From Chloroflexota bacterium (GTDB lineage: Bacteria; Chloroflexota; Anaerolineae; Anaerolineales; Villigracilaceae), in contig JACPYX010000006.1 in the NCBI GenBank assembly GCA_016195815.1, positions 186,001-250,000 of the forward strand: a stretch of 64,000 bases of DNA, in the 5' to 3' direction. The position numbers and the translations under genes were made by a program. The notes below the pieces were generated by a model. That model was given only the letters and a program-made list of their open reading frames with translations. It was not told where the DNA came from and did no database searches. This document shows positions 431 through 49,079 of this stretch, one piece after another; positions within the stretch are counted from its first letter, which is position 1, and every line of letters starts with the position of its first letter.

Positions 431-2140
431 ATGACTTTATTTCCCCGGCATGTTGATGCGAAGACGCGAAGACATAATTTTCTTCGCGCCTTCGCGCCTG
501 CGTGGTTAAAGTGTCCTTTGCTTTGGTTCCTCCCGCTTTTATTTCTCGGTGTATTTTTCTTCCTGCCTCTTTTCAAAATCCTCGCTTTCACTTTCGATCT
601 TTCTGCCCTTACAACTTCCAACCTCCAGCTTGCGTTTCGCGTTTTACTTTTTACTTTCTATCAGGCCCTTCTCTCGACTTTTCTTACGTTGCTGGCCGGC
701 CTGCCTTCTGCTTATCTCTTTGCCCGCTATGATTTTCGCGGCAAATCTTTGCTTCGCGCGCTGACCGCCGTCCCGTTCATGCTTCCGACCGTCGTGGTCG
801 CGGCGGGATTCAATGCCTTGCTCGGCCCGCGCGGCTGGGTCTCTGTCATCTTTCCTCTTTCATCTTTTCAGTTCACCGGCACACTCGGCGCAATCCTGCT
901 TGCCCACATTTTCTACAATACCACCATTGTTATTCGCATCGTTGGCAACGCGCTCTCGCGCTTCGACCCCAAACTGGAACAGGCCGCGCGTTCCCTCGGC
1001 GCAGACTCGCGCCGCGCCTGGTGGAATGTTACTTTGCCGCTTCTGCGGCCACCCTTGTTGGCCGCCGCCTTGCTTGTCTTCTTATTTGACTTCACCAGTT
1101 TTGGCGTCATCCTTTTGCTGGGCGGGCCGCGCTTTGCCACGCTCGAAGTGGAAATTTATATTCAGGCTTTGCAATTATTCAATCTGCCGCTGGCCGCCTT
1201 GCTCTCGTTGATTCAATTGCTTTCCACGCTGGCCTTCTCGGCGCTTTACACGCGCCTCGTCACGCGCACGACCGTCCAAAGTGCGCCGCGTTCGGCGGAA
1301 AGCAACGTCCGTAAAGCGGGAAGCCTGCGCGAAAAAATTTTTGTCGCTTCTTTCATCTTTCTTCTTTCCTCTTTCTTCATCCTGCCCATGCTGGCCCTGC
1401 CACTTCGCTCCATCTCGCGCCTCGATGCGAACCGCGCTGATCGCGCACAGATACAAACCGGCTTCATACCAGACTATTACACAGAGTTATTCATCAATCG
1501 CCGCGATTCGATCTTTTATGTCCCGCCAGTTCGAGCTGCGTTCAATTCGCTTGGCTATGCCGGCGCGACCGTTCTGCTTTCGCTTCTGCTCGGATTCCCG
1601 GCCGCGTCTGCGCTGGCAAAGCCGGGACGCCTCGAAAAGATTCTCGACCCGATTCTGATGTTGCCTCTCGGCGCATCGGCAGTCACGCTTGGCCTCGGCT
1701 TTATCATTGCCTTTGGCCGTTTGCTGACATCTCCCTTCCTCGTGCCTCTTGCTCATACATTGATTGCCTTGCCCTTCGTCATCCGGACTCTGCAATCATC
1801 CATTGCGTCCATCCCCGACAGATTGCGCCAGGCCGCGGCCTCTTTGGGCGCATCGCCGTTTCGCGTCTGGCAAACCGTTGACTGGCCCATCCTGCGCCGC
1901 GCGACTCTCTCTGCTTCGATCTTTGCTTTCACCATCTCGCTGGGCGAATTCGGCGCGACGGCTTTGCTCTCACGCCCCGAATATCCCACCATCCCGGTCG
2001 CCATCTATCGCTTCCTCTCCCAGCCCGGCGGTTTGAATTATGGTCAAGCCATGGCAATGGCAACTTTGCTGATGGCACTTACGACGGTTGGTATTTTGCT
2101 TATTGAAAAACTGCGCCTGCCCGGCGCGGGAGAATTCTGA
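431..2140 (+). CDS. thiP: ABC transporter permease, double-domain ThiP/FbpB type
   Basis: This 569-residue integral membrane protein carries two binding-protein-dependent permease halves, as in ThiP. EAA-type cytoplasmic loops that contact the ATPase are visible at about residues 183-210 (beginning EQAARSLGA) and 466-490 (beginning RQAAASLGA). I chose ATG 431, six bases after the upstream stop; the longer start at 401 would run back into thiB. The first 25 codons overlap a stem-loop repeat (458-495), so the extreme N-terminus is repeat-derived. Several pyrimidine-rich stretches also encode Phe/Leu/Ser runs between membrane helices. It overlaps the ATPase gene by one base (TGATG), so the two are probably translationally coupled. 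Confidence 0.85.
   Translation: MTLFPRHVDAKTRRHNFLRAFAPAWLKCPLLWFLPLLFLGVFFFLPLFKILAFTFDLSALTTSNLQLAFRVLLFTFYQALLSTFLTLLAGLPSAYLFARYDFRGKSLLRALTAVPFMLPTVVVAAGFNALLGPRGWVSVIFPLSSFQFTGTLGAILLAHIFYNTTIVIRIVGNALSRFDPKLEQAARSLGADSRRAWWNVTLPLLRPPLLAAALLVFLFDFTSFGVILLLGGPRFATLEVEIYIQALQLFNLPLAALLSLIQLLSTLAFSALYTRLVTRTTVQSAPRSAESNVRKAGSLREKIFVASFIFLLSSFFILPMLALPLRSISRLDANRADRAQIQTGFIPDYYTELFINRRDSIFYVPPVRAAFNSLGYAGATVLLSLLLGFPAASALAKPGRLEKILDPILMLPLGASAVTLGLGFIIAFGRLLTSPFLVPLAHTLIALPFVIRTLQSSIASIPDRLRQAAASLGASPFRVWQTVDWPILRRATLSASIFAFTISLGEFGATALLSRPEYPTIPVAIYRFLSQPGGLNYGQAMAMATLLMALTTVGILLIEKLRLPGAGEF
458..495. repeat. Stem-loop repeat inside the start of thiP
   Basis: Arms at 458-472 and 481-495 are complementary at 14 of 15 positions around an 8-base loop. 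The arms consist of the alternating words gcgaaga and cgcgaaga. A related tract lies at about 17262-17290 inside the LutB-LutC gene. It is read through in frame as residues about 10-22 of ThiP. Confidence 0.7.
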
Positions 2141-3132
2141 TGCTCGAACTGCGCGGCGTTTATAAAACCTACGAAGGCCAGCCGCTTTTGCGCGGCATCT
2201 CGTTCGCCGTGGATGAGTCCGAAACGATTTGCCTGCTCGGCGCGTCGGGGAGCGGAAAGTCAACTCTTCTGCGGATGATCGCCGGACTCGAATTACCAGA
2301 CGCCGGACAGATTCTTTGGGATGGACATGACCTGGCTTATACTCCGCCTCACCTTCGCGACTTTGGGCTGGTCTTCCAGGACTACGCGCTTTTCCCTCAT
2401 CTGACAGTTTCCGAGAACGCGGCCTTTGGCTTGAAGATGAGGAACTGGCCGAAGAATAAAATTCAAGAGCGCGTGACTGAAGTATTGAATATTGTGAATC
2501 TAAACAGCTTCGGCAACCGTAAAGTCACCGATCTCTCCGGCGGCGAACAGCAACGCGTGGCCTTTGCGCGCGCCCTCGCGCCGCGTCCGCGCCTGTTGAT
2601 GTTCGACGAACCGCTCGGCGCGTTGGATCGGGCTTTGCGTGAATATCTGCTTAATCAATTGCGCGGCATCCTGCATCGTACCGGCATCCCCGCCATTTAC
2701 GTCACGCACGACCAGCAGGAAGCCATCTCGATTGCAGATCGCGTCCTGCTTTTGCATGACGGGCAGATCGCGCGCCAGGGCAGCCCGAAAGAGGTGTGGG
2801 AGAATCCCGGCTCAGCGTGGGCGGCGGAATTTTTGGGATTGGGAAATGTCATTGAAGGTTTGAAGGTTGAAGGTTGGAAAGTTGAAACAAAGTTCGGCAT
2901 CTTCGATGTGAGGTGCGGACATAGGCATCGGGACGGGGAAAAAGTCCATTTATTGGTGCGCCCGCTTCAAGCCGGGGAAGGAGGCGTGATACGCGGCCGC
3001 GCGGAGGATGTCGTCTTTCAGTCGGATCGTTTCAAAGTCACGCTGGATAACGGTCTATATTTTTATTTGGATGATGAGCCGAAGGTCGGAGAGAAAATCG
3101 AAGTCAAAGTTAAGCTGGAGTGTTTGGGATGA
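2140..3132 (+). CDS. thiQ: ABC transporter ATP-binding protein, ThiQ/PotA type
   Basis: This 330-residue ATPase powers the ThiP permease. Walker A (GASGSGKST) is near residue 35, the signature LSGGEQQRVAFARA near 131, Walker B (LLMFDEP) near 153 and the switch His in VTHDQQEA near 189. After the nucleotide-binding domain there is a C-terminal TOBE-like beta domain, which is longer than in enteric ThiQ and more like PotA/FbpC. The linker between the domains (residues about 237-250) is encoded by a tandem gaaggtt-type repeat and reads EGLKVEGWKVE. The start overlaps the thiP stop by one base, and the stop overlaps the next gene as ATGA. Thiamine specificity is inferred from the neighbours; Fe3+ or putrescine are alternatives. 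Confidence 0.8.
   Translation: MLELRGVYKTYEGQPLLRGISFAVDESETICLLGASGSGKSTLLRMIAGLELPDAGQILWDGHDLAYTPPHLRDFGLVFQDYALFPHLTVSENAAFGLKMRNWPKNKIQERVTEVLNIVNLNSFGNRKVTDLSGGEQQRVAFARALAPRPRLLMFDEPLGALDRALREYLLNQLRGILHRTGIPAIYVTHDQQEAISIADRVLLLHDGQIARQGSPKEVWENPGSAWAAEFLGLGNVIEGLKVEGWKVETKFGIFDVRCGHRHRDGEKVHLLVRPLQAGEGGVIRGRAEDVVFQSDRFKVTLDNGLYFYLDDEPKVGEKIEVKVKLECLG
2852..2888 (+). repeat. In-frame heptad-like repeat in thiQ
   Basis: Degenerate tandem copies of gaaggtt/ggaaagtt units occupy the linker between the ATPase and TOBE-like domains. Similar words recur at 23381-23410 (intergenic) and 26347-26416 (in another gene). Confidence 0.65.
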
Positions 3133-3587
3133 ACGATATCAAAGTGTTGAAGCGCAATCTGGCGGGCGAGGTGACATGGCAATACGATGGCCGTATCTTG
3201 GCGCGTGATGAAAATTCAGTGGTGCTCGAAGCCTTCTTCAATCGTCCCGACAGGCCGTTTATGGATGTGGCGTTGAAAGAGAATGACCGCTTCGTCGAAA
3301 CGTTTTATACGGATCGCTGGTATAACATTTTTGAAATTTACGATCGCGATGACGGAAAGATCAAAGGCTGGTATTGCAACGTTGGCAGGCCGGCTGTGAT
3401 CGCGGATGGAACTGTCTCGTATGTTGATCTGGCTTTGGACTTGTGGGTTTCCGCAGACGGAAAACAAACTGTGCTGGATGAAGATGAATTCGGCGCGTTG
3501 CCTTTGGGCGCGGCAGATCGCCAAAAAGCCGCGCAGGCTCTTGCCGAACTTCGCAGGTTGTTTGAATCAAAACGGCCTCTGCCATAG
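3129..3587 (+). CDS. DUF402 domain protein
   Basis: This 152-residue protein has the DUF402 fold signature: an FYTDRWYNIFEIYD segment, then GWYCNVGRP, a Y/VDLALDLWV strand and a Asp/Glu-rich loop (LDEDEF). Characterised members such as NtdP are divalent-metal-dependent nucleoside di/triphosphatases, and those acidic residues bind the metals. The substrate here is not known. I chose ATG 3129 because it overlaps the thiQ stop as ATGA and has GGAG eight bases upstream; a GTG at 3120 is less likely. The stop codon lies in the loop of a perfect 10-bp hairpin that probably ends the thi transcript. Confidence 0.8.
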   Translation: MNDIKVLKRNLAGEVTWQYDGRILARDENSVVLEAFFNRPDRPFMDVALKENDRFVETFYTDRWYNIFEIYDRDDGKIKGWYCNVGRPAVIADGTVSYVDLALDLWVSADGKQTVLDEDEFGALPLGAADRQKAAQALAELRRLFESKRPLP

Positions 3588-44826: not shown

Positions 44827-46101
44827 TTAAGCTGTCCGATAATAACCGACGTCCACCGAGTAAATGCGGCCGCGCTTGACCACCTGCCTGACCAGATTCG
44901 TGCCGAAGCGATAACCGAGGTGGCGATAATCGGGAACGTTGAGAATCAACAAATCGGCCTGTTTGCCCTCTTCGAGCGAACCGATCGTATCAGATCTGCG
45001 GACGGCGTGCGCGGAATTGATCGTCGTGGCGGCGATAGCTTGCGCGGGAGTCAGGCCCATCGTGCGGCAGGCCAGCGCGATGACAAATTGCATGGACTCG
45101 TTCCAAGCCGTGCCCGGGTTGCAGTCGGTGGCGAGGGCGAAGAGCGCATCGGCTTCGATCAGTTTACGCGCGGGCGTGTATTCTTTTTCGGCGAGGCCGA
45201 ACGGCGTGCAGGGAAGCGAGACCGCCACCGTGTCCGATTTGGCGAGTGCGGCGATATCTGCATCGGAGGTTTTGACGAGATGATCCGCCGATGCCGCGCC
45301 TAACTCTGCCGCCAGCGCCGCGCCGCCGAGGTTGTCGAATTCGTCAGCGTGGATTTTGAGTGGGAATCCGAGCGAGGCGGCTTTGGTCAAGACCTGACGC
45401 GATTGTTCGAGAGTGAAGGCTTTGTTTTCGCAGAAGACGTCCACAAATGGGAGCGGGAGGCGCGGCGCGTGAGTCTGCCACCATTGTTGGACAGTCGGAA
45501 GCATCGTTTCGCAGATGAGGTCGGTATAGCCTTGCGGGTTATTTTTATATTCGGGCGCGATGGCGTGCGCGCCGAGGAACGTGATGGCAAGATCAACCGG
45601 GCTTTCATCTGCCAGCGCCAGCAGAGCCTTCAGCAGGCGAAGTTCGGTGGCGGTTTGAAGTCCGTAACCGGTCTTGGCTTCGGCAGTGGTTGTGCCGTGT
45701 GCGAACATGCGAAGTAAACGTGGCCGCGTCTGTGCGATGAGACTTTCAATCGAGGCCGTGCGCGTTTGCCGGACGGTTGAAATAATCCCGCCGCCCGCCG
45801 CGAGGATGTCGAGATACGGCCTGCCTGCCATCTTCATTTCGAACTCGCCGGCGCGGTCGCCGGCCCAAATAAGATGCGTGTGCGGATCCACAAAGCCAGG
45901 CATGACCACGCAACCGCTGGCGTCGAGAGTCGGTTCATCTTTATAGGAGGCGCGCAGTTCGTCGGTTGGACCGACGGCGACGATCTTTTCATCGCGCATG
46001 ACGACCGCGCCGTTTTCGATGATGCCGAGCGTGCCGAGAGCGCGTCCGCGTTGCGGGCCGCCTTTGAGAGTCAGAAGTTGGGTGGATGAGTGGATGAGCA
46101 T
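44827..46101 (-). CDS. hutI: Imidazolonepropionase
   Basis: This 424-residue amidohydrolase performs the third step of histidine degradation, opening imidazolonepropionate to N-formimino-glutamate. The metal site starts with VDPHTHLIWAGDRAGEFEMK; KTGYGLQ, the His-rich HAHAIAPEYK-like part (LGAHAIAPEY), and KIHADEFDNLGGA follow, and ALATDCNPGTA is near the end. The start codon lies one base after the stop of the restriction-modification methylase, with its ribosome site inside that gene. Other hut genes are not in the window. Confidence 0.92.
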   Translation of the reverse strand: MLIHSSTQLLTLKGGPQRGRALGTLGIIENGAVVMRDEKIVAVGPTDELRASYKDEPTLDASGCVVMPGFVDPHTHLIWAGDRAGEFEMKMAGRPYLDILAAGGGIISTVRQTRTASIESLIAQTRPRLLRMFAHGTTTAEAKTGYGLQTATELRLLKALLALADESPVDLAITFLGAHAIAPEYKNNPQGYTDLICETMLPTVQQWWQTHAPRLPLPFVDVFCENKAFTLEQSRQVLTKAASLGFPLKIHADEFDNLGGAALAAELGAASADHLVKTSDADIAALAKSDTVAVSLPCTPFGLAEKEYTPARKLIEADALFALATDCNPGTAWNESMQFVIALACRTMGLTPAQAIAATTINSAHAVRRSDTIGSLEEGKQADLLILNVPDYRHLGYRFGTNLVRQVVKRGRIYSVDVGYYRTA

Positions 46102-46102
46102 T

Positions 46103-47035
46103 TCAGCGAGTAGTATTCGGTGTACAGATTACATAATCATCTTTGTGAGACTTCTCGAATAACGCCATTTGCTTTTCTAGTTGTGCTTCTATTTGCGGCA
46201 ATGGGTTGTAGTTAAGAACAATCGCTTCGAGCATGGGATTGCGATTCTTTTCGCTCGCGCCCACGTGATAGAAATGTTCGCGGGTCAAGATCGTGAAGCT
46301 ATAAGCATATTTTTCGATGGCCGAATTGGAGCGATATTGATTGCTGTGCCAGGTGGAAAGGATAAATTTCGCTGGCGTATTGCCAAGTAAATCATAGAGT
46401 TCTTGTTCATCAGGCTCAGACCATGAATTGAAATAGTCCACATGCCTGCCGATGTATGGCGGGTCACAATAGATCAAGTCGTTTTTCGATGCAGGGGAAA
46501 TTATCTTTCTGAAATCGGCGCAGACAAATTGCCAATCGTATTGGCTGGTTGCCTGAGTTACATATTTGATTTGGTTTGTAATCTTGGTAATATAGGCTTT
46601 GGCAAAACGTTCGGGCTTGTGGCCAAAGGGAACATTGTAAGCCCCCTTTTTATTGAAGCGCATTACGCCGTTGAAACAAGCGCGGTTCAAGAAGAGCAAA
46701 TCCAAAGGTTCGTGGTCTTTGTTGAATCGCTCACGGATTTTATAGTAATGATCTTCGCCTTTGGATTGAAGATGCACGCCTTCTGTTTCCAGAAATTCCC
46801 TGGCGATTCCTGCTGTGATTTTTCCCTGCTTGATTGCATTGTAGAAATTGATGATATGTGGATTTACATCTGCAAAAACAGCGCGGCTCGGGCGCATATT
46901 GAAGCCAACCACACCTGAACCCATGAACGGCTCAATCCATATGCCGTCATTTTTGAGAACGGCATGATCCTTAATCCACTCTACCAATTTTGTCTTAATG
47001 CCCTGACATTTCAGGGGGGGGACATTTATAGTCAT
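46103..47035 (-). CDS. Type II DNA adenine methylase, EcoRV-like (predicted GATATC)
   Basis: This 310-residue N6-adenine methylase of the Dam/EcoRV class has the SAM-binding motif WIEPFMGSGVVGFN near the start and the catalytic DLIYCDPPYIGRH. Large parts resemble M.EcoRV: VPPLKCQGIKTKLV, EPLDLLFLNRACFNGVMRFN, AYITKITNQ, DYFNSWSE and REHFYHVGASEKNR. ATG 47035 was chosen as it matches the start of M.EcoRV and overlaps the endonuclease stop as ATGA. A run of eight C residues (minus strand, 47021-47014) lies at codons 5-8. Confidence 0.9.
   Translation of the reverse strand: MTINVPPLKCQGIKTKLVEWIKDHAVLKNDGIWIEPFMGSGVVGFNMRPSRAVFADVNPHIINFYNAIKQGKITAGIAREFLETEGVHLQSKGEDHYYKIRERFNKDHEPLDLLFLNRACFNGVMRFNKKGAYNVPFGHKPERFAKAYITKITNQIKYVTQATSQYDWQFVCADFRKIISPASKNDLIYCDPPYIGRHVDYFNSWSEPDEQELYDLLGNTPAKFILSTWHSNQYRSNSAIEKYAYSFTILTREHFYHVGASEKNRNPMLEAIVLNYNPLPQIEAQLEKQMALFEKSHKDDYVICTPNTTR
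47014..47021 (-). repeat. Homopolymer C8 tract at the start of the methylase gene
   Basis: Eight consecutive C residues (G on the plus strand) code for part of VPPL at codons 5-8 of the methylase. One-base slippage would destroy the frame. Confidence 0.7.
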
Positions 47036-47913
47036 TTCTGTACTCGTCTGTTGCTCTTGCGTGCAGGTTTTCTTGCCATTGGGTTGGCAAGTTTTTGATC
47101 TTTCCCGCGATAAACCAAATACTCTTTCAGCAGTGTAATTTGCTTTACTGTGCCATCTGGTTTTGTGATTTGGATTCTGCCGTAATTCATCCAATAATCA
47201 TCGAACCATTTCTCGCCGAGTTTTTTGAAAACGCCATTGCCTTCCAACAGGTCACTGATTTTTGTGATACTGCCTATGTTTGCCGTGTTCGAGCTACCTT
47301 GATAATCGCTGGCAATTTCCCATTTTTCGTGGACGAAAAACTGAAAATTGTTAATGACAGATGTGATTGATTGTAACTCTTCAAGACGATGGGCTTCGGC
47401 CTCATAACTTTTCTCGGGGCCGGAGCGCGAGTAGATAATGCCGAGACAAAAATGTCCAAGATATTCGTTATATGGGAATTGTATATTTTTGTTGCTGTTG
47501 CTGTTGCGGTTGATGAAATATTCGCCATGCGAGCCAAGTGTAAAGCCATTGCAGAATTCAGGACTATCGAGCAAACGATACGTGGTCTTTAAATCCACTG
47601 CAAATTTGACGCTTTGGTCATCTGCCTTTACAAAGGACAAATCGGGATAATAGTTTTGTTGCTCAGCCAATACAATCTGATAGTTATTTTGATTGGCAAA
47701 TTCAAGCAATTTAGGAAACAAATGGATTTCGAGAATCTTTGAGACAATTTTCGTATCTGCCGAAATAGTGTAAATGTTGCGAAATACATCAATGAAACCT
47801 TTGATCGTCCATTGATCGTCAGGTGTAGAAATATGCCCTTTTAGTGTTTCAACAAAACCCGTCAATGCCTGTTTAAATTCTGTTTTGATTTCTTCCCGTT
47901 TTTGCTTCGGCAT
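47032..47913 (-). CDS. Type II restriction endonuclease, EcoRV-like
   Basis: This 293-residue endonuclease resembles EcoRV over most of its length. The PD-(D/E)XK core is visible as QQNYYPDLSF (Asp74 equivalent) and AVDLKTTYR (Asp90 and Lys92 equivalents). DNA-contact and structural segments also match: EKWEIASDYQGSSNTANIGSI and EGNGVFKKLGEKWFDDYWMNYGR. The expected cut is GAT^ATC. ATG 47913 has CGGAG upstream. The gene is richer in A/T than its neighbours and precedes its methylase with a 4-base overlap. The last 15 residues are basic and not in EcoRV. Confidence 0.9.
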   Translation of the reverse strand: MPKQKREEIKTEFKQALTGFVETLKGHISTPDDQWTIKGFIDVFRNIYTISADTKIVSKILEIHLFPKLLEFANQNNYQIVLAEQQNYYPDLSFVKADDQSVKFAVDLKTTYRLLDSPEFCNGFTLGSHGEYFINRNSNSNKNIQFPYNEYLGHFCLGIIYSRSGPEKSYEAEAHRLEELQSITSVINNFQFFVHEKWEIASDYQGSSNTANIGSITKISDLLEGNGVFKKLGEKWFDDYWMNYGRIQITKPDGTVKQITLLKEYLVYRGKDQKLANPMARKPARKSNRRVQK

Positions 47914-47960
47914 CTTTGTCTCCGTAGAGAAATTATACATCACGCAAAGGCATAGATAAC

Positions 47961-47986
47961 AAAGCCGCCCCTTTCGGAACGGCTTT
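47961..47986. terminator. Hairpin downstream of the 125-residue membrane protein gene
   Basis: Seven-bp stem aaagccg/cggcttt (47961-47967 with 47980-47986). Placed between the membrane protein gene and the restriction gene on the minus strand. Confidence 0.5.
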
Positions 47987-48024
47987 TGACTACCTGCAAC
48001 TGCGCAACGAAACGGCTTCTTCGG

Positions 48025-48402
48025 TTACTCTGCCGGGCCGATGAATTGGAAGTAGGCAAAGGCGACGGCGAAGAAACCATAAATGACCATCGCTGACCAG
48101 CCCAGAACGTTCATGGCGCCCGAAAGCGTCCCGCCAATGGAAACAACCAACCCAATCGCGCTGGAGATCAGAAGGGATAACGTGATCGCACTGCGCGCAC
48201 TGGAAGCGGATTCGTCGCGGGCCAGCAGTGTGACCATGCCGGAGGCCAGCAACTGAACGCCAAAGAACTGGGCCAGTAGTCTATCCCCGGCTGTGGTGGC
48301 GATGCCGTATAAGAACAGCATGGTCTGCGGGATCAACAAAAGGCCAAGCGCATATAACAAAGCGATCAATGAATGGATCAAAAACAGGTTGCGGATTTTC
48401 AT
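48025..48402 (-). CDS. 125-residue four-helix membrane protein
   Basis: Four hydrophobic segments can be counted, at about residues 7-27, 40-60, 72-92 and 100-120. The start IRNLFLIHSLIALLYALGLLL and a later GVQLLASGMVTLLARD are the clearest. It resembles small DUF4345-type proteins in layout, but I cannot confirm the family. ATG 48402 has AGGAG at good spacing. It is a single-gene unit. Confidence 0.6.
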   Translation of the reverse strand: MKIRNLFLIHSLIALLYALGLLLIPQTMLFLYGIATTAGDRLLAQFFGVQLLASGMVTLLARDESASSARSAITLSLLISSAIGLVVSIGGTLSGAMNVLGWSAMVIYGFFAVAFAYFQFIGPAE

Positions 48403-48476
48403 GGTTATTCTCCTTTGATGGTTGGTTCTATTTTACGACAAGGCAGGAAAAAACCAATAGCCGCCTGAGGGCAAAT

Positions 48477-49079
48477 TTATTTTCGTGCAGTGGCCCACAT
48501 GTTGAGCATAAATTCAAAGTAACCAAATTTGACCTTGGTCATTTCAAAACCTGCCTGCCCAAAATGCCAGCCGAGCAGCGGAAGAGTGTAAGCGAAGGCA
48601 TGCTCGTGGATTTCTTCCGCGCTGACCAGGTTGATGCGCGCCATGAATTTGAGCAGTCCATCTGACCAGGCGGCGGGCGTGGTGAGAATTGCCATACCGC
48701 CGGGCTTGAGCACACGCCGGCTTTCGCGGAACAGCATGGCCATGCTGTCTGGGTCGAGATGTTCGACCACGGCCAGCAACGTGACAATGCTGAAGAAATT
48801 ATCCTCGAAAGGAAGTCTTGGTTCTTTGTTTAGATTCAGCGTGAAGAACTCGATCCGATTTTGCGCGGCGGTCTCTTTTTCCATCGGGAGTTGATCCACC
48901 GCGAACTTTTCCTGGAAGGAGGTGTGGGCGAGAAAATAAGGAAAGGAGCCGCACCCGATGTCTAGAATGCGGCCGGCCCTCAGGTCCGCGGGAATGAGGC
49001 GGTTGGCGCGCTGAGTGCGGAGGTGCGCGAGGGTCGGTTCGAGCAATCCCCTGCCGCGTGTAAGTTTTGTCTCGCTCAT
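48477..49079 (-). CDS. Class I SAM-dependent methyltransferase
   Basis: This 200-residue protein has the SAM motif ILDIGCGSFPYF near residue 38, acidic VDQLP near 62, LLAVVEHLDPDSM (motif IV-V) and VLKPGGMAILTTP. The N-terminus (RGLLEPTLAHLRTQRANRLI) is typical of methyltransferases of cell-surface or lipid-linked sugar pathways, where the substrate is usually unknown. No partner gene is adjacent; the region to the right is divergent. Confidence 0.82.
   Translation of the reverse strand: MSETKLTRGRGLLEPTLAHLRTQRANRLIPADLRAGRILDIGCGSFPYFLAHTSFQEKFAVDQLPMEKETAAQNRIEFFTLNLNKEPRLPFEDNFFSIVTLLAVVEHLDPDSMAMLFRESRRVLKPGGMAILTTPAAWSDGLLKFMARINLVSAEEIHEHAFAYTLPLLGWHFGQAGFEMTKVKFGYFEFMLNMWATARK

Follow-up and report, generated by a model that had tools for sequence, protein, structure and literature searches.

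The window, i.e. the whole 64,000-nucleotide stretch that was analysed (contig JACPYX010000006.1 of a Chloroflexota genome, hereafter G000), carries on its minus strand a restriction endonuclease gene (R) and an adenine methyltransferase gene (M). The features of this locus are collected in Table 1. R extends from an ATG at 47911-47913 to a TGA at 47032-47034, and M from an ATG at 47033-47035 to a TGA at 46103-46105. A run of eight C residues (the C8 tract, G8 on the plus strand) begins at nucleotide 15 of M. The first-pass annotation had described an EcoRV-like pair in which M starts in the stop codon of R and contains this tract at codons 5-8; the coordinates are exact and the family profiles match. 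The Endonuc-EcoRV profile PF09233 matches R over the full domain (profile positions 2-244 of 244). M, which carries PPxKxQGIKT, FMGSG-like and DPPY segments, matches the D12/Dam methyltransferase profile PF02086 as well as TIGR00571 dam. Such a gene pair is far beyond chance.

Table 1. Features of the restriction-modification locus (window coordinates)
Feature	Position	Strand	Remarks
Terminator-like hairpin, 11 pairs, between the upstream gene and R	47961..47986	-	
TATAAT, possible -10 element of the operon	47932..47937	-	putative; read by eye, absent from the promoter-scan list
GGAGA, Shine-Dalgarno-like site of R	47919..47923	-	best duplex -6.6 kcal/mol
Restriction endonuclease gene (R), EcoRV family, 293 aa	47032..47913	-	PF09233 E 2.2e-112; R.EcoRV PDB chains E 2.6e-37; catalytic and recognition-loop residues aligned
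ATGA shared by the R stop and the M start, 4 bp	47032..47035	-	
C8 tract, GTC CCC CCC CTG = V-P-P-L, M codons 5-8	47014..47021	-	single case among 107 homologous stretches
Adenine methyltransferase gene (M), Dam family, M.EcoRV-like, 310 aa	46103..47035	-	PF02086 E 1.1e-44; TIGR00571 E 6.1e-56
Imidazolonepropionase-like gene, 1 bp after M	44827..46101	-	marks the chromosomal site

Compared with the proteins of the EcoRV plasmid, identity reaches 55.7% for M and 31.8% for R; the close match to EcoRV claimed for both proteins was overstated for R. Judged from their sequences, EcoRV and the window pair are clear relatives, not close ones. The PD-D-x-K and DPPY sites read at first pass are confirmed by alignment: P90, D91, D107, K109, G206, S207, N209, T210 and N212 of R are invariant in 14 aligned endonucleases, and DPPY is invariant in 15 aligned methylases. 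In the computed alignment, D91, D107 and K109 are the counterparts of residues that we take to be D74, D90 and K92 in EcoRV numbering. GS-x-NT-x-N is a feature of the recognition loop in the EcoRV family. The loop of R reads GSSNTANIG, with a Ser in place of the EcoRV Gly, and is common to 17 of the 17 family loci compared, a set to which the truncated loci and some others, such as L030 with Gly, do not belong. GATATC is the likely specificity of the predicted R and M proteins, and the Type II system is probably active.

GATATC occurs 20 times in the window, against 24.5 expected under a Markov model and 12.5 in shuffles, so that avoidance is not evident; a paired-site GATATC pattern found no match. 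On the scale of genomes, those with R and M contain 767 sites (243 per Mb, G000), 423 (136, G002) and 966 (268, G005), the M-only genome G003 contains 1061 (259 per Mb), and the genomes in which no close M was found contain 883 (285 per Mb, G001) and 1088 (351, G004). These densities fit a mild avoidance, of which we make no claim with six genomes and raw composition.

The chromosomal site was characterized from the gene that follows M, whose product we take to be imidazolonepropionase-like (hutI). The R/M pair precedes this gene in G000, G002, G005 and G007, and M alone precedes it in G003, at distances of 1 to about 450 bp. The site is common to near relatives only, because the other family loci gave no match to this gene in the compared stretch. 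Despite a lower GC content (42% for the operon, 52% for the window), the presence of the operon in near relatives indicates a resident rather than a fresh arrival. A copy of 36-37 bp of the start of the imidazolonepropionase-like gene is visible directly upstream of M in G003 (L056, 8698-8734), and again upstream of a 5' scrap of M in G004 (L089, reverse complement, 1020-1055). These copies suggest a duplication at this spot, although they may have arisen otherwise, and recall the long target duplications reported with restriction-modification genes.

The layout of the pair was then compared with that of other EcoRV-like systems. A scan by the KTTY and GS-NT motifs yielded at least 580 confirmed genome loci. 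Among the best 80 of these, which come from records titled with many phyla, describe the nearest branch only and in which residue conservation is partly circular since the motifs were used to pick the loci, R precedes M on one strand in all 80. The ends of the two genes overlap in 76, by exactly 4 bases in 62 and by 1 to 47 bases in 14, and do not overlap in the other 4; M was taken to begin at whichever in-frame start codon lies closest to the R stop, a choice that biases towards short distances, and three rows were re-read. The same order on one strand is found on two plasmids, Rhodothermus marinus pRMAR01 (4 bp overlap; R 58% and M 62% identical to the window proteins) and Antarctobacter heliothermus pSMS3-1 (1 bp overlap; R 54%, M 53%). 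These two pairs differ from the window pair in being plasmid-borne and in having no C8.

EcoRV, found on E. coli plasmids (e.g. pEC159, NC_019982), resembles the window pair in its proteins (R 32%, M 56%), with the catalytic and most recognition-loop residues kept. It differs in that its own helix-turn-helix controller (C) gene overlaps R and M is divergent, as described in part of one study (PMC5333194). This operon type, with a C gene before R and a divergent M, is not that of the window pair, in which both genes lie on one strand with R first, their ends overlap by 4 bp and no C gene was matched. In the plasmid systems of E. coli, Geobacillus, Leuconostoc and Acinetobacter, R is preceded by a helix-turn-helix gene and M is encoded on the opposite strand. 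A profile built from four C proteins of EcoRV-like plasmids, which recovered left-out members in 4 of 4 cases, found no C gene in the window between 42001 and 52000, in 24 family loci, in the 80 best genome loci or in 2 plasmid loci. On 18 viral loci it gave one weak match, though seven of them have M opposite R; its sensitivity is limited if those seven carry C genes, because only one was matched. In the remaining viral loci, R is followed by M on one strand in six and no M is seen in five. The seven viral contigs with a methylase on the strand opposite to the EcoRV-family endonuclease (L189-L195) are unlike the genome loci in this respect. The branch to which the window pair belongs differs from EcoRV in layout, and probably in regulation.

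As for expression, R would be served by its own promoter-like and Shine-Dalgarno-like signals. The context of the TATAAT motif, TGCGTGATGTATAAT, also precedes R in G005, and the region contains 6 terminator-like sites, against a mean of 2.8 in shuffles. Six sigma-70-like sites were counted on both strands of 45900-48500, compared with a mean of 4.3 in shuffles; this is not above chance, and a promoter for M inside R was rejected. To judge by gene order and overlap, R and M are probably read from one transcript. Duplexes with the 16S tail reach at best -6.6 kcal/mol upstream of R and -2.5 upstream of M. M would probably be translated in large part by ribosomes that have just finished R, because it starts in the R stop codon behind this weak Shine-Dalgarno-like signal. 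The weak signal is not common to all relatives, the duplex before M ranging from -1.8 to -8.6 over 20 family loci, window included. Overlap is moreover no proof of coupling, the overlapping C and R genes of PvuII being translationally independent according to part of the study of that system (PMC2997769).

We then examined the C8 tract in relatives. The two prolines that it encodes (V-P-P-L) are invariant in 15 of 15 aligned methylases. Among 107 distinct homologous DNA stretches, i.e. those of the collected loci that match one motif, the maximum C-run length is 8 for the window alone, 6 in 3 stretches, 5 in 10, 4 in 7, 3 in 28 and 2 in 58; a C7 at the homologous site was found in none of the 107. 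Multiplying column frequencies, 0.054 C8 would be expected among them. Given V-P-P-L, the probability of the spelling GTC CCC CCC CTG is 0.015 under the codon usage of the window, drawn from 49 crude open frames. The closest relative, G002, of the same genus and with an M 86% identical, spells the site ATC CCG CCG CTG, and G003, of the same genus and without detectable R, has Ser-Pro at the position of the prolines.

Taken alone, a run of eight C in the window is not beyond chance (1 found, 1.43 expected from dinucleotide shuffles). C/G runs of at least 8 are scarce in the genome, with 8 separate runs in 3.16 Mb (12 overlapping pattern matches), and finding one at a methylase start is mildly surprising. 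When stop-to-stop frames were inspected by eye, three of the eight runs, that of M included, lay close to where a plausible coding frame opens, the other two such frames beginning with MRILILNHEFPPVGG and MFFQDAPP; one run immediately precedes a probable start, and the others fall outside frames or are ambiguous. Two C/G runs of ten (G000:C2:27580-27589 and G000:C11:157-166) have no evident conserved gene beneath them, again by eye. Because the prolines are invariant, the C8 is present in one of 107 stretches and its spelling has a probability of 0.015, we read the tract as a rare single event in this lineage and not a maintained feature, most likely a chance result of the codons used for conserved residues.

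The order in which the two genes are lost was examined in 152 genomes of the same family, with cut-offs of E 1e-3 for R and 1e-60 for M. R is present in 22 genomes and M in 25, and none of the 22 R carriers is without M. A full-length R match without stops accompanies M in 18 of its 25 carriers. In five, R is lost or broken (absent in G003 and G126, shortened in G028 and G062, broken in G025), and two are left unclassified due to a run of N beside R (G111) or a contig end (G134). In these family genomes R goes first, 5 to 0. Within the genus, G002 and G005 have R as a full-length open frame, 92% and 85% identical to that of the window; in G004, which is 78% complete, no R was found, and the scrap of M left at the site codes for VNVPPLKYQGIKTKL.

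In a broader survey of 396 genomes of the class (R at E 1e-20, M at E 1e-80), R was found in 50 and M in 31, with both in 25, R only in 25 and M only in 6; several R of this set are fragmentary or broken. The loci inspected comprised 26 from the 25 R-only genomes, one with both genes and five of the six M-only cases. A second D12-type methylase, with a query taken from L207, is present in 25 of the 26 R-only loci (fragmentary in L206, truncated at the contig end in L212), and the remaining locus, L222, belongs to G358, which has this methylase on a different contig (L221). Relative to R, it lies upstream on the same strand in 19 loci, downstream in 5 and on the other strand in 1. R-only genomes of the class are thus other pairings, not demonstrated unprotected endonucleases. 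The partners of EcoRV-fold endonucleases in the class include at least two kinds of D12 methylase (L200-L225), and in L201 (G199) a single frame of 636 codons, at 1197-3107, comprises an EcoRV-family endonuclease and a second-type D12 methylase, possibly a single-chain system. The sole result against the rule that M is never lost first is G441 (L215, reverse complement, 1280-3361), because its second-type methylase is frame-disrupted twice, by a 10-bp repeat difference and by the shortening of a C run at DPPY, and the adjacent R frame is full-length. It may be a candidate for M off and R on with the other methylase type; an assembly or sequencing error is also possible.

As R lies upstream of the tract, a frame slip there would remove M and leave R. 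A tract of 7 C makes M stop after 7 codons and a tract of 9 C after 13; the in-frame ATG, GTG or TTG codons available for a restart within codons 9-60 (at 17, 38, 42 and 47) all lie behind the invariant PPxK.QGIKT segment. The earlier claim that slippage would end protection and keep the endonuclease is in agreement with these frames. The idea that the tract works as a true phase-variation switch, by which subpopulations gain and lose methylation as they do through Helicobacter methyltransferase genes, was rejected and appears very improbable to us: although the C run sits where such a switch would be expected, early in a methylase gene, and either slip ends M so early, the tract is conserved in no relative compared (C8 in 1 of 107, C7 in none, C6 in 3). 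In Type I, Type III, Type IIG and BcgI-like systems, an independent nuclease need not remain once M or S is lost; here R would stay on. The known homopolymer cases, as far as they are covered in parts of two papers, are Type III, Type IIG and BcgI-like S-subunit genes (PMC3936762, PMC4490391), and a passage of a review names Type I and III as phase-variable (PMC12707154). Type II is not exempt, the Type IIS endonuclease HpyAII being called phase-variable in part of another paper (PMC7494987). In M.Hpy99XXI of Helicobacter pylori, a homopolymeric run also lies within a methyltransferase reading frame, but it consists of 10-12 G with measured length variation and belongs to a Type III system, according to a section of one of these studies (PMC4490391), whereas the window has 8 C, in one genome only, in a Type II system. 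The same study gives deletions below 3% for ordinary runs and values above 15% for its switching genes. Among the papers listed under the topics of EcoRV, homopolymers, phase variation, coupling, solitary methylases and target duplication, none was seen to report the present case, for which we claim no first description.

Slippage would be harmless if R were inactive or weak here and M behaved as a solitary methylase. The loss of R with M kept in five of 25 family carriers (two more being unclassified), the same-genus G003 with M and no detectable R, and the 6 of 31 class M carriers without R at the cut-off used all speak for this reading, which we nevertheless hold to be unlikely, as R in the window has an uninterrupted frame of full length and its catalytic residues, as in G002 and G005. 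The proposed tie of the endonuclease to the methylase through coupling runs against gene order: the overlap could make M depend on R, not R on M, and for this reason coupling could not protect slipped cells. It is quite unlikely that a widespread controller-free EcoRV-like branch sets its R:M ratio by stop-start coupling while the C run makes M slippery, in translation or replication, so that M is slightly short, or lost in rare self-restricting cells. A hairpin formed by the end of R that masks the start of M and so controls its translation is scarcely credible. Some relatives can form a CTGCCC:GGGCAG pairing directly upstream of M (L022, from G007; z -2.66), but over 20 family loci the mean z is -0.60 against mononucleotide shuffles, with positive values in 4 of 20, and the window, at -0.09, does not support it; the hairpins tested in PvuII had no significant effect in the part of the study concerned (PMC2997769).

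The locus is best explained, with a probability of about 0.86, as an ordinary resident Type II EcoRV-like restriction-modification operon, in which the C8 is an accidental spelling and not a conserved slippage switch. In such an operon R and M would share one transcript, M being translated mostly by ribosomes leaving the R stop; by homology, M would methylate GATATC and R would cut it. A slip in the C8 would cost the cell M while R is kept, and we infer that such self-restricting cells would die, selection thereby holding the frame and the tract at eight.

A homopolymer in a methylase gene is thus weak evidence for phase variation unless relatives keep it, and a false lead is removed in this case. 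Only the arrangement is of mild interest, with R first, overlapping gene ends and no controller detected. The genome loci nearest to this pair do not follow the divergent, C-controlled organization of EcoRV, and how R-first operons enter a new cell without killing it is a concrete question that would follow.
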